From: Gemmatimonadota bacterium
GTDB lineage: Bacteria > Gemmatimonadota > Gemmatimonadetes > Gemmatimonadales > GWC2-71-9
Length of the DNA stretch: 62,010 nucleotides
Reading direction: 5' to 3'
Assembly: GCA_020350425.1 (NCBI GenBank)
Contig: CP070716.1
Span: forward strand, 1,350,995-1,413,004
Made by a program: the position numbers and the translations under genes. Below, piece by piece: positions 18,333 through 24,479 of the stretch. Below the pieces are notes generated by a model. That model did not search any database. It was not told the origin of the DNA and saw only the letters and a program-made list of their open reading frames with translations. Positions within the stretch are counted from its first letter, which is position 1, and each line of letters starts with the position of its first letter.

Positions 18333-20501
18333 TCACTGGTTCTCTGTGTGATGGCCCTCGACGAAGCGGCCACCCCGGCGCAGCTGCTCGGCCGTCCGGC
18401 TCAGCTCCGCGGCCCCCCGGACCAGCTCGGCCAGGGCCCGAAGCTGCTCCTTGCTGGCCGCCGCCACCGCTGCCGCCTCCTTGGCGGAGCCGCCCGCGGC
18501 GTCCCTCGCGTCCCCCAGGACCTGCTTGGCCTCCTCGGCCAGGTCCCGGTTGCGCCGCGGCCCGTCGGCCATGCGCTCGCCGGTCCGCTGGGCCGCCTCC
18601 GCCGCGGAGACGACGTGGTCCAGCTCGGCCGTCCAGGCCTCCGAGGCTTGGGTCACGGCCTTGAGCTGCTTGTTCATCTCCTCCAGGATGCGGACCGCGC
18701 GGTCGATCACGCGCCGCGTCTCCTGGGCGCCACGACCCATGTTCTGGGCCGCTTGGGCGCTCTGCTCGGCCAGCTTGCGCACCTCGTCGGCCACGACCGC
18801 GAACCCCTTGCCGTGCACGCCCGTCCGGGATGCCTCGATGGTCGCGTTGAGGGCGAGGAGGTTGGTCTGGTTGGCGATCAGGGCGATCGCCTCGGAGAAC
18901 GCCTCGACGTCGGCCGCCGCCTCCTTGAGGCGGCTCACCTCGGTGGCTCCTTCGGCGATCGTGGAAATGAGCGTGCCCATCTGGTCCACCGCGCGCCCGC
19001 TCGCATCGCGCACGCCGAGAGCCGACTCGGCCGTTACGCGGTTGGCGTCCTGTGTCTCCCCGGCGGCTTCCAGGGTGGTCGCTATGCTCTCCTCCAGCTG
19101 GCGCAACGAGTCCGCCACCAGCTCCACCCGCTCGGAGGCGCGCTGCGCTTCGGCTTCGGCCCGTGACGCGCCCTGGGACATCGCCTCGGCGGCCCGCTGG
19201 ATCCGGTCGCTCGCTTCCGCGAGCTGAGCCACGTATGCGGAGGTGCGCTGCGATGACTCGGTCAGCGGCTTCATCAGAGCGCTCACCGAGAGCGAGAGTG
19301 CGAGTTGCGGCGCGAGGAGATCGAGTAGTGCGCCGTCCGCGGGGCGGTACATGGAGGGATCGGAGTGGCGCACACTCCACAGGCCCACCAGCTGGTCGCC
19401 GTGGAACAGCGGCACGAGGATCTCGGATCCCGGGGACTCGCCCTCGGGCAGCACCATGTCCGAGCGCGTGAGCACGTTGGCCACGACGGGCTGCTCGGTA
19501 CTCACGGCCTCGGCAATGAGGCCGCTCTGGGTGTCGAACCGGAGATGCTCCGAGGTGGATGTGTCCACCAGAATCACCATCTCGTGCTTGGCCGCGTCGT
19601 GTCGCGCGAACCCCATGTGCTGCCACGGCACGAGCTGGCGGGTGAGCTGCTGGATCTGCTCGAAGTTCCGCTCGATGTTCACCTCGGCGGCCACGGCTCT
19701 CCCGAGCCCCTGCACCAGGGCCAACTCGTCGGCCCGGACGGCCGTCTGGATGAGCCACCAGACCAGCCATGCGGCCGCGATCAAGGCGGCCACGAGAAAG
19801 GCGGTCGCGTTGGGTGTCAGCGCGGCCGTGAGCAGGCTTACCCATCCCAGCGCGAACGCCGCCCCGGTGGCCGAGACGACGGCCTCCCAGCGCAGCGTGA
19901 GGTTGACGTCTACTTTGGGGAGCAGCCCGGCCAGGGCGAGCTCCAGGTAGAAGCTCATGTTGGCGAGGGCTGGCGGCAGCAAAACGGCGGCCGCGGCCGG
20001 AACCAAGTTGCCGGCTTCCACCGATCCAGCCCCGACCTCCCCGCCGAGCGCGTCGTACAGCAGGCCGACCAGGCCGGTCGCCACCACCACGTGGCCCAGC
20101 GTAACCAGGCTGTCCCTGATGCGGAGGCGCCGCAGCAGCGTGTCGCCCGCCGGGACGCCAATCGCCGCCACCAGCACAGCGAACTGCCATCCTCGAAGGA
20201 GGAGCGACAGGATCACGATGCCCATGACGAACGACGCGAATCCCTTCCCTGGAAGGGCGATGCCGAAACGGCGGCTCAACGCCGCCGCGGTGGCGAGCAG
20301 GATGAGGTTGAGTCCGAACGATCCCTGTCGCAGGTCGGGGCGCGCTGCGACGGTGGCCACCGCCAGCACGAAGAACGCGATGCCGGCGGCCGCTATCGCG
20401 AGGCGAAGCCACCGTGCGAGCAGTCGGGTGTCCACAGTGGGCACGGCAGGCACCGGGTTGTAGTCGAGCGAAGGGTAAGCGGCGGGAATGTCGTAAACCA
20501 A
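18333..20501 (-). CDS. Methyl-accepting chemotaxis-like protein with integral-membrane sensor and GAF domain
   Basis: 722 aa. Residues about 28-265 form six to eight hydrophobic segments (for example [20 protein letters not shown] and [18 protein letters not shown]), a MASE-like membrane module rather than a periplasmic ligand domain. A GAF-like domain follows (about 290-410: [37 protein letters not shown]). The C-terminal MCP signalling coiled coil (about 420-710) has its hairpin tip at [16 protein letters not shown] and [12 protein letters not shown]. There are no che or flagellar genes nearby, so its output may be pili or another Che pathway. It is divergent from the selenoprotein operon. 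Confidence 0.9.
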
Positions 20502-20614
20502 TCGACAAACTGCAAGCCGGAGGACAGCCGGACTCGTGGCGGCCGGGCCGGCCGCGGCCTAACTTTCGGGCGGCCCACGACGAATCGCCCACTGATACTG
20601 ATGAGGAGGAGTGT

Positions 20615-20848
20615 GTGCAGGTCTCGATCGAATACTGCGGTGTTTGAGGCTACAAGCCACGGGCCGCCGGTCTGGCGGCCGAGATTCGGAAGGCGTATGC
20701 CGACAGCCGCGTGGAGCTGATCGAGTCGTCGGGTGGTGTCTTCGAGGTGGAGCTCGACGGTGATCTGGTCTTCTCCAAGCGTGAGCTCGGTCGCCATGCG
20801 GAACCGGGCGAGGTCATGGGACTGATCCAGGAACGGATGAGTTCCTAG
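20615..20848 (+). CDS. Rdx-family (SelW-like) selenoprotein with in-frame UGA read as selenocysteine
   Basis: 77 residues. The start is the GTG at 20615, five bases after AGGAGG. It reads VQVSIEYCGV, then TGA at 20645-20647 (Sec11), then GYKPRAAGLAAEI and on to a TAG at 20846. The Cys8-Gly-Val-Sec11 redox motif, the GGVFEVELDG strands and SKRELGRH at the end match the Rdx thioredoxin-like family (SelW/SelT/SelH relatives), whose members use CxxU or CxxC. Coding quality is equal on both sides of the TGA and a bacterial-type SECIS hairpin follows it. The protein is probably a small cytoplasmic thiol/selenol oxidoreductase. It is six bases ahead of the phosphofructokinase gene, so probably co-transcribed. 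The sel genes are not in this window. Confidence 0.88.
20645..20680 (+). promoter_or_regulatory. Bacterial SECIS element (UGA plus downstream hairpin)
   Basis: UGA at 20645-20647, 14 spacer bases, then GGCCGCC (20662-20668), loop GGUCU (20669-20673) and GGCGGCC (20674-20680): seven G-C pairs, no mismatch. The first loop base is 21 nt after the UGA, inside the range known for bacterial SECIS elements. GG at the loop start is what SelB recognises; the GGUCU sequence also occurs in the E. coli fdhF SECIS loop. Confidence 0.82.
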
Positions 20849-20854
20849 AGGTAG

Positions 20855-21940
20855 ATGTCGGTGCGTGTCGCGATATCCACGGGGGGCGGGGACGCTCCTG
20901 GACTGAACGCCGTCATCCGAGCGATCGTGCTCTCCGGGCTGCGCCGCGGGTGGGACGTGTTCGGGGTCGAGCGCGGCTACGCCGGGCTGCTCGGCTCGGC
21001 ACGCTTCATCACGATGGATCGCGAGAGCGTGAAGGGAATCGTGCGCTTTGGCGGCACCATTCTCGGCACCACCAACCGGGGCAATCCCTTCCGCTGGCCG
21101 GTCCGCCAGGCCGACGATACGTGGATCGAGGTCGATCGCTCCGACGAGGTCATCGAGTCGTTCAGGCAACTCGCCCTCGATGCGCTCATCGTGGTGGGCG
21201 GTGACGGCAGCTTGCACATCGCGCACCAGCTCTGCCAGAAGGGGCTGCCCATCGTCGGCGTGCCGAAGACGATCGACCGCGACGTGAGCGGCACGGTGAT
21301 GACGTTCGGCTACGACACCGCAATCCAGACCGCGACCGATGCCATCGACAAGTTGCACGCCACGGCGGAGTCCCATCAGCGAGTAATGGTGGTGGAGGTG
21401 ATGGGGAGGAACTGCGGGTGGATCGCCCTGCACTCCGGCCTCGCGGGCGGCGCCGACGTGATTCTGATTCCCGAGATCCCCTACGACATGGAGCGTGTCT
21501 ACCGCAAGATCCGGGAGCGTGAGGCCGAGGGACGCCACTTCAGCATCGTCGTGGTCTCGGAGGGGGCGAGACCGAAGGAGGGCAAGGTTACGGTGAAGGC
21601 GGCGGCGCAGGTGGGTGGCGCGGAGCGCCTGGGTGGTGTGGCCGAGGTGGTGGCGGCACAGATCGCCGAGGGGACCGGCAAGGAGACGCGCTCGCTCTCG
21701 TTGGGGCACCTGCTGCGCGGCGGGTCGCCGACGACATTCGATCGCGTGCTCGGCCAGCGGTTCGGGACGGCCGCGGTCGAGGCCGTGGCCGACGCGCGGT
21801 GGGGACACATGGTGGCGCTGGATCCTCCCGACATCGTCCTGGTCCCGTTGGAGGCCGTGACCGGAGCGCCAAACCAGGTCCCTCCCGATGCCGACTCGGT
21901 GAAAACGGCGCGCGCACAAGGCATCTGTCTGGGTGACTGA
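20855..21940 (+). CDS. 6-phosphofructokinase (PfkA family, ATP-type)
   Basis: 361 aa, ATG at 20855 with GAGG just before it. The fold is clear: STGGGDAPGLNAVIRA nucleotide loop, VVGGDGSLHIA, catalytic PKTIDRD, MGRNCGWIALHSGLAGGAD, LGHLLRGGSPTTFDR. It phosphorylates fructose 6-phosphate in glycolysis. Gly in GGDG predicts ATP rather than pyrophosphate as donor. Lys in PKTID is shared with pyrophosphate enzymes and actinobacterial-type group III ATP enzymes. The usual TIDND reads TIDRD: both Asp are kept, Asn is changed to Arg. It is translated just after the selenoprotein and overlaps the helicase start by 8 bp. Confidence 0.95.
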   Translation: MSVRVAISTGGGDAPGLNAVIRAIVLSGLRRGWDVFGVERGYAGLLGSARFITMDRESVKGIVRFGGTILGTTNRGNPFRWPVRQADDTWIEVDRSDEVIESFRQLALDALIVVGGDGSLHIAHQLCQKGLPIVGVPKTIDRDVSGTVMTFGYDTAIQTATDAIDKLHATAESHQRVMVVEVMGRNCGWIALHSGLAGGADVILIPEIPYDMERVYRKIREREAEGRHFSIVVVSEGARPKEGKVTVKAAAQVGGAERLGGVAEVVAAQIAEGTGKETRSLSLGHLLRGGSPTTFDRVLGQRFGTAAVEAVADARWGHMVALDPPDIVLVPLEAVTGAPNQVPPDADSVKTARAQGICLGD

Positions 21941-24479
21941 GCGGCACGTCCGCGACCACTTCCTCCCCCCCGACCGGGAAGCGTTCCTCCAGGCCGAGCC
22001 GCCCACCGGCCGCGTCATCGTCATTGCCCCCACGAGAGCCGCCTGCGAGACGATCGAGCGCGCCTGCCACCTCAACATCGAGACGGTGCTGGAACGCGAC
22101 CACGGAGTGGAGATCCGGAGCCTCGCACGACGCGGATCCGGGTTCGGGATCGTGGCCGGCACCGGCACGGGGAAGACGCTCGCTATTCGCCCCGTGGCCG
22201 AGGAGACCCTGAGGGCGCCGCTCAAAGTCGGGGTGGTCAACCGCGAGCGTGAGGCGACCCCGGAAACGCCGACGTGGAACGTCGTGATCGTGACGACGGG
22301 CATCGCGCGGCGCTGGTTCCAGGACGAGCTGATCGATCCGCAAGACACGCTGGTGGTGGACGAGATCCATCAGACGTCGGCGGAGCTGGAGCTGTGCCTC
22401 GCGCTGGGCAAGCGTGTCGGCTGCCGTTTCATCTGGCTCTCCGCCACCGTCGATCCGAAGTTCTACGCGCGATACCTCGACTCCGCCGAGGTGCTCGAGA
22501 CGACGGCGTTCGATCCGTCCCTCTCGGCCAAGGTGCAGACCCTGCGGCGGAATCCCGTCGAATTCCTCGATGACCGCTTCGTCCGACGCAGCATGAAGCA
22601 GCGCCGTGGCGTGGCGGTCTTCCTGCCGACGCGGGCAGAGGTGGAGAAGGCGGCCGCGGAGCTGGGTAAGCGTTGGCCACGCCTGAACGCGGCATTCTAT
22701 CACGGGGGCGAGCCGATCCGAGTGATCCGGCCGTTCCTCGATGGTGAGGCCGAGAAGCCGTTCCTGCTCGCCATGACGGCGGCGGGCCAGTCGGCGCTCA
22801 ATATCCGCGGCCTGGATACGGTGGTGATCCTCGACTCGCGCTTCAGCAACGTCGTGCAGCGCGGGCGCAACGTGCTCACGCGGCTCTATCTGGGTCCCAA
22901 CGAGATCCTGCAGATGGCGGGCCGCGTCCACGGGCGGGTGCCGCAGGGCGAGGTCTACATCCTCACCGATCGGGACATCGACTTCTTCTCACTCGAGCCA
23001 GGGCCCCCAGAGTTCCAGCTCGCGGGCGACAGCGAGCGGGTGGCGCTCACGGCCGCCGCGCTGGGAGTGGATCTGCGCGACCTGGAGCTCCCGGTGCCGC
23101 TCGACCGAGAGGCGTACGCCGACGCGGTGGAGCGCCTGGTGCGCCGCGGCATCGTGAGCGACGGTCGCCTCACCGCGTACGGGAGGGACGTGGAGGCGAT
23201 GCCGGTGGATCGACCGTGGGGCGAGATGCTGGTCCACGCCGACGAGGAGCTGATTCCCTACGTGGCGGTCGCCGCCAACGTGGATTCACTGCATCGCATG
23301 ACCCGGGACGACGCCGATCTCTCGGGGGTCGTGGTCTACGGGAGCGATCACCTGACGGCCTACAACCTCTACGCCGAAGCCGTGAACCAGTACGGCTACC
23401 TCGGCGAGGTGTACGGGCTCTCACGACACCTCCTGGTGGACGAGGTGAGCGACTGGGCGGAGGACCGCGGCGTGCCCGTGAAGGCGATCGAGGACGTGGC
23501 GCTGGGCATGGCCTCGGTGTACCGCACGCTCGAGCTGCCCCTGCCGCGGGAGCTCCCGTACGCCGACCGCAAGGTACTGCATGCGTTTCAGGAGCTCGTG
23601 GCGCGCATCATGCCGTTCGACCTCACGATCGATGGGGAAACGGCCGGGGGGGAACGGGCGCGTCTCTCCGACTCCTCGATGTGCACGCCGAGCGGCGCCA
23701 TTGCCGGTTCCATCCGCTTCTTTGCCGACCGCTTCGGCGTGCCGCGCGGCGCGATGGAGGGTACGAACGTGCCGTTCGCCCTCATCAAGCGGCACGCCCA
23801 GCGGCTCGAGCCGGTCGTCGAGTTCCGGGAGGGACGGCGCAGCGGTCTCGTGGTGACCCGTGGCACGGAGTATTTCGGATTCGTTTTGGACCGGGAGCGC
23901 AGCCCCCTCAAGGGGCGGTTCCCGGCCGCACTGGAGGCGAGCGCACGCGACGCGCTCGCGCGTGCCCTCCTGCGCGGCGTGACGCCCCACCGCGATCAGC
24001 GCGGCGTGGCGCGAGCGGCCTCCCGACTCGACGAGTACTGGCGCCGCTCGGGCGGCGAGCTCGCTGCCGTGGGCCCGGCGGCGCTGCGCGAGCACCTGGC
24101 AGCGCAGCTTTCCGACGTCGTCAGCTGGGAGGCGTTCCTGAAGACACCGGTGGCCCTGGACGTGGCCGCACTCGTGCCGAAGGAGACGCGCGCCGATCTC
24201 GACGCGCTGCCCGGCTCGGCCCAGGTGTTCGGGGATCGCGTGCCGCTGCTGTACGATCTGGAGGGTGGGGAGGGGGTGGTCTGCCTCCGCCTGAGAGAGA
24301 AGCAGGCTCAGCGGTTGCGTGAGCGGGATCTACCGGACGTGGACCGGCCCCTGAGGTTCAGCGTCCATCGGGGCAATCGGGAGGTCGTGCGCGCCGCGAC
24401 GCTCGACGAGGTGCGCGAGCGGCTGCGTGTGCTGGCGCGGCGCTCCGGCGAGCGCCGCAGTCGGCGACGGTATCGCTAG
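21933..24479 (+). CDS. SF2 DExH-box helicase-like protein with long unassigned C-terminus
   Basis: 848 aa, GTG start overlapping the phosphofructokinase stop. Walker A is AGTGTGKT at about residue 74 and Walker B is DEIH at about 141. Motif III is SAT (WLSATVDP). A helicase C domain has FLPTRAEVEKAA and motif VI-like QMAGRVHGR, more diverged than the usual QRxGRxGR. Unusually, an APTRAACETIE stretch precedes Walker A. Residues 360-848 are conserved-looking but carry no domain I can name; I do not see the OB fold of HrpA/HrpB. It is probably an RNA helicase or nucleic-acid ATPase. Its stop shares CTAG with the convergent TetR gene. Confidence 0.85.
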   Translation: MTERHVRDHFLPPDREAFLQAEPPTGRVIVIAPTRAACETIERACHLNIETVLERDHGVEIRSLARRGSGFGIVAGTGTGKTLAIRPVAEETLRAPLKVGVVNREREATPETPTWNVVIVTTGIARRWFQDELIDPQDTLVVDEIHQTSAELELCLALGKRVGCRFIWLSATVDPKFYARYLDSAEVLETTAFDPSLSAKVQTLRRNPVEFLDDRFVRRSMKQRRGVAVFLPTRAEVEKAAAELGKRWPRLNAAFYHGGEPIRVIRPFLDGEAEKPFLLAMTAAGQSALNIRGLDTVVILDSRFSNVVQRGRNVLTRLYLGPNEILQMAGRVHGRVPQGEVYILTDRDIDFFSLEPGPPEFQLAGDSERVALTAAALGVDLRDLELPVPLDREAYADAVERLVRRGIVSDGRLTAYGRDVEAMPVDRPWGEMLVHADEELIPYVAVAANVDSLHRMTRDDADLSGVVVYGSDHLTAYNLYAEAVNQYGYLGEVYGLSRHLLVDEVSDWAEDRGVPVKAIEDVALGMASVYRTLELPLPRELPYADRKVLHAFQELVARIMPFDLTIDGETAGGERARLSDSSMCTPSGAIAGSIRFFADRFGVPRGAMEGTNVPFALIKRHAQRLEPVVEFREGRRSGLVVTRGTEYFGFVLDRERSPLKGRFPAALEASARDALARALLRGVTPHRDQRGVARAASRLDEYWRRSGGELAAVGPAALREHLAAQLSDVVSWEAFLKTPVALDVAALVPKETRADLDALPGSAQVFGDRVPLLYDLEGGEGVVCLRLREKQAQRLRERDLPDVDRPLRFSVHRGNREVVRAATLDEVRERLRVLARRSGERRSRRRYR

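Follow-up and report, generated by a model that had tools for sequence, protein, structure and literature searches.

Selenoproteins of the SelW-like family, which carry a CxxU motif and are among the commonest in bacteria, were described from bacterial sequences in 2005-2008; they form the most abundant selenoprotein family in marine samples and their Cys homologues are very rare or absent in organisms that use selenocysteine (Sec) (PMC1088965, PMC1794560, PMC2398784). That SelW genes are missed by annotation was also known before (PMC4607533). We analysed a stretch of 62,010 nucleotides from a Gemmatimonadota genome (the window), and conclude that its positions 20615-20848 almost certainly hold a bacterial SelW-like (Rdx) selenoprotein gene, here called selW, whose UGA is decoded as selenocysteine. 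It shares with the described bacterial SelW-like genes (SELENOW-like, PF10262) the domain, the Sec position, a downstream bacterial SECIS, and the scarcity of Cys forms; it differs from them in belonging to Gemmatimonadota and in adjoining a phosphofructokinase gene, neither of which appears in the literature searched.

Among relatives of known structure, the Cys-type Rdx proteins 2fa8, 3dex, 2oka, 2obk and 2p0g have just 24-39% identity to the selW product and share the fold of its model (TM-score about 0.85, rmsd about 1.5); in the 2fa8 and 3dex alignments a Cys stands where the window protein has Sec. Mouse SelW (2npb) has family and fold in common with selW at 23% identity. It carries a CxxU motif, and eukaryotic SECIS elements differ in type and sit elsewhere in the mRNA. 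The closest curated model is NCBIfam NF041051 (SelTWH_Campy), whose name points to Campylobacter-type members, a different phylum from that of the window.

The gene and its read-through product

Direct reading places selW on the forward strand at 20615..20848, with a GTG start (20615-20617), 77 codons and a TAG stop (20846-20848). A Shine-Dalgarno sequence, AGGAGG, lies at 20604..20609 (+), 5 nt 5' of the start codon, and codons 8-11 read C-G-V-TGA, an N-terminal CxxU motif with the TGA at 20645..20647 (+) encoding residue 11; the sequence-only reading had described just this gene, motif and ribosome-binding site. The read-through product of 77 residues begins MQVSIEYCGVUGYKPRAAGLAAEIRKAY... 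It had also been anticipated that ordinary gene calling would miss selW, and the standard ORF list indeed does not show it: the part before the TGA sits within a meaningless 77-aa ORF (20414-20647), and the part after the TGA has no in-frame ORF of at least 60 aa. A promoter and terminator scan at selW found none, with no sigma-70-like promoter upstream; promoters of Gemmatimonadota may differ.

With the TGA read through, the product matches Pfam Rdx PF10262 at 72.1 bits (cut-off 22.6) over model positions 1-73 of 74, effectively the whole length of the domain, NF041051 at 103.5 bits (cut-off 88), and TIGR02174 at 61.4 bits (cut-off 34.2), and it is the sole Rdx match in its genome. The homology runs on both sides of the TGA to the domain end, as claimed, so a lack of homology downstream, which had been named as a possible refutation, does not arise. 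An AlphaFold2 model of the product (pLDDT 96, pTM 0.84) predicts a thioredoxin-like SelW fold, its best Foldseek matches being the bacterial SelW-related structures 2fa8, 2obk, 2oka and 3dex (TM about 0.85), with MIEN1 and mouse SelW ranked lower.

Relatives of selW were found in 194 of 395 Gemmatimonadota genomes, including both sampled genomes of the same genus, and among the matches listed (E to about 4e-22) every one has exactly one TGA. A further 27 loci from public species genomes (Gemmatimonadota, Acidobacteriota, Deltaproteobacteria, Chloroflexi, and others) all have TGA at this codon; the nearest named relative of the product, from a Gemmatimonadales bacterium, is 81% identical, in agreement with the window's phylum. 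Because the Rdx score of 72 bits extends across the TGA and homologues keep the TGA at the same codon, selW is beyond what chance would produce. The same conservation bears on the suspicion, raised with the original claim, that a TGC or TGT at 20645 was misread or misassembled as TGA and the protein is an ordinary CxxC Rdx. Such an error would fit a source genome that is a scaffolded draft with gaps, and Cys-type Rdx proteins do exist, five of them in Gemmatimonadota (L080-L084). These five are a distinct subfamily, however, with the motif CxxCRW, about 30-37% identity to the selW product, and no matching hairpin; the window contains no N, and genomes assembled independently, two of them of the same genus, have the TGA at this codon too, as do genomes from several other phyla. 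Since every match listed has one TGA, we regard an error as wildly improbable. The Cys-type subfamily occurs in some genomes of the class, three of which carry the Sec form as well.

A gene in decay, with translation genuinely ending at the TGA and only a relic beyond it, is very improbable too, if a shade less so. Decay does occur in this family of genomes, as a genome of the same family (G013) holds a SelW copy with a central internal deletion (L098); in the window, by contrast, the frame, the domain and the terminal stop are intact, and both the TGA and the hairpin described below are conserved. Where relatives differ beyond the TGA, most of the changes are in the third base of a codon (24-27, with 6-7 in the second; for locus L038, 9, 6 and 24 at codon positions 1, 2 and 3), an excess which argues that the part after the TGA is translated. 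As a separate matter, G013 is 99% complete and keeps selA and selB despite its decayed SelW copy, behind which the phosphofructokinase and helicase genes still follow.

Two further Rdx-like frames among the Gemmatimonadota genomes have two in-frame TGAs each. One, a second Rdx protein in G146 (L102:623-865, + strand), begins MADKVRVLIEYUAEUEYQSHAARV... and has a UxxU motif; AGGAG lies upstream, and a hairpin, CCGCC-CGTGT-GGCGG, 16 nt past the second TGA. SelW-like proteins appear in reviews as CxxU only, and a search of the 395 genomes gave no UxxU Rdx relative besides this one. The other (L097, in G382) has the motif CKTUASYRPR...FTVUV, a CxxU site with an extra residue following; its second TGA, about 35 codons after that of the CxxU site, may be a second Sec, an error or a sign of decay.

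A hairpin downstream of the TGA

The 7-bp all-GC hairpin that the sequence-only reading had placed 14 nt past the UGA is found at 20662..20680 (+), and its folding and covariation identify it as a bacterial SECIS hairpin. The stem GGCCGCC (20662-20668) and its partner GGCGGCC (20674-20680) enclose the loop GGTCT (20669-20673; GGUCU in the RNA), the hairpin begins 14 nt past the UGA, and the distance from UGA to apical loop is 21 nt. The published bSECIS model specifies a loop of 3-9 nt with G in the first two loop positions, a spacing of 16-37 nt, and an MFE <= -7.5 kcal/mol (PMC13188914); with its GGUCU loop, 21-nt spacing and MFE of about -21 kcal/mol, the selW hairpin lies within all of these bounds.

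Folding statistics from a single sequence are weak in GC-rich sequence, and the case for the hairpin therefore rests on covariation. Taken from the window sequence only, the hairpin is moderately unusual for GC-rich sequence (folding z -1.87); synonymous recodings retain the 7-bp stem in 8.4% and the stem together with the GGUCU loop in 0.7%, and 53 of 500 recodings fold equally well. We aligned 62 distinct homologous sequences without gaps and compared them with shuffled controls. Pairing holds in 88.7% of the cells of the seven stem pairs, and changes on both sides occur in five of the seven pairs, in 24 cells as against a shuffled mean of 5.8. The covariation score of 0.202, compared with 0.093 in shuffles, is reached by none of 500 shuffles, and shifting the stem partners by 1-3 columns abolishes the covariation. 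GGUCU is the commonest loop among the homologues; the inner five stem pairs are the strongest, and the outer two are absent from part of the homologous sequences. It is this comparative evidence that makes the hairpin convincing. Nothing in the window reached the gathering threshold in an Rfam scan, a result that does not weigh against the hairpin.

Selenocysteine machinery and spread in Gemmatimonadota

All four genes for Sec decoding, whose presence had been proposed as a check, are found in the source genome, a single 2.87 Mb scaffold estimated to be 75% complete with gaps as runs of 100 N. SelA scores 527 bits, SelB 261 bits (above cut-off), and SelD 359 bits; selC is a tRNA-Sec gene at 75.7 bits, which ARAGORN calls tRNA-SeC with anticodon TCA. 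The selB gene, 65% identical to that of a same-genus genome, sits on a piece of ~3 kb flanked by two 100-N gaps. There are two selA copies, 57% identical (L010, G000:C1:986626-987690; L009, G000:C1:2301460-2302764), the first of which is broken by a 100-N gap and is possibly a duplication or a misbinned piece. Since selB and this gap-broken selA lie beside assembly gaps, both could in principle be pieces misbinned into a scaffolded, 75% complete genome, although a same-genus genome does have the related selB noted above. The selD gene (L018, G000:C1:1925081-1926007) is itself a selenoprotein gene, with an in-frame TGA in the motif GAG-U-ACK.

This machinery also bears on whether TGA might be reassigned genome-wide (e.g. 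to Trp), or be passed by the ribosome with no selenocysteine involved. An internal stop codon would in principle agree with that, and we found no specific support for it. Four of seven nearby genes (the phosphofructokinase gene, the MCP-like gene, and two others) end normally in TGA, which argues against general reassignment; the genome has a tRNA-Sec with a TCA anticodon along with the other sel genes, and the TGA falls at the catalytic chalcogen site of the CxxC/CxxU family. We consider reassignment or Sec-free readthrough exceedingly unlikely.

With UGA decoded as selenocysteine, translation of selW would start at the GTG downstream of AGGAGG. SelA would turn Ser-tRNA-Sec into Sec-tRNA-Sec using selenophosphate supplied by SelD, and SelB would bind the GGUCU hairpin immediately downstream of the UGA and deliver the Sec-tRNA-Sec, so that selenium is inserted at codon 11 and translation runs on until it meets the TAG, 6 bp short of the phosphofructokinase start codon. 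The predicted product is a 77-residue thioredoxin-like oxidoreductase, in which the Cys-Gly-Val-Sec motif probably makes and breaks a selenenylsulfide bond, exchanging with a thiol partner.

Across the 395 Gemmatimonadota genomes selA was detected in 282; Rdx and selA occur together in 177, Rdx alone in 17, selA alone in 105, and neither in 96, an association (Fisher p 1e-18) that is descriptive, the genomes being related and phylogeny not corrected for. Nearly all members of one genus (g4) are without both the Rdx match and selA. The 17 SelW-positive genomes without detected selA comprise one with a Cys form, five with selB, and 11 others; because just one has the Cys form and five have selB, the missing selA points to draft incompleteness and not to real absence.

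Roughly half of the genomes sampled from this common, little-cultured phylum thus carry a selenoprotein that routine annotation overlooks, alongside the Sec machinery. No work on selenoproteins of Gemmatimonadota turned up in the titles and abstracts of the open literature searched, and the selenoprotein reviews and surveys consulted make no mention of the phylum. As far as the literature was searched, therefore, the spread of SelW in Gemmatimonadota and its conserved neighbourhood are provisionally new, in line with the earlier suggestion that gene, neighbourhood and phylum may be undescribed; the word is provisional because subscription journals and preprints lay outside the search. The family itself, as had been recognised, is already in the literature as bacterial SelW-like CxxU proteins. 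The finding leaves the picture of that family unchanged: it is ordinary in kind and comes from a hitherto undescribed lineage.

Gene neighbourhood

As predicted, the next gene begins 6 bp past the selW stop, where the ATG of a 6-phosphofructokinase gene (20855..21940, +; PF00365 350 bits, TIGR02483 PFK_mixed 436 bits, above cut-off) stands at 20855. Its end is overlapped by a DEAD/DEAH-type (HrpB-like) helicase gene (21933..24479, +), which matches PF00270 and PF00271 above cut-off and the HrpB model TIGR01970 below that model's cut-off. The proposal of an operon of selW with these two genes holds as gene order, here and in relatives; selW may be co-transcribed with these neighbours. Counted by hand from tables, with one duplicate locus removed, phosphofructokinase lies near the Rdx gene (within about 1.5 kb) in 32 of 39 loci of the same order, and the helicase is nearby in all seven of those that are without phosphofructokinase. 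In other families of the class neither gene is present at any of six loci, one of which is truncated by a contig end. Judged by gene order, the selW-phosphofructokinase-helicase arrangement is an order-level trait.

This conserved neighbourhood is an indirect lead to the function of bacterial SelW, and may hint at a link with glycolysis. It is conceivable, if rather improbable, that SelW serves the adjacent phosphofructokinase specifically, as its redox partner or its regulator, tying selenium status to glycolytic flux across one order of Gemmatimonadota. Because all seven loci without phosphofructokinase keep the helicase, the adjacency may merely reflect an old gene cluster. Upstream of selW lies a divergent, chemoreceptor-like gene with GAF and MCP-signal domains (18333..20501, - strand; PF00015 85.6 bits, PF13185 36.1 bits), whose start codon is uncertain.
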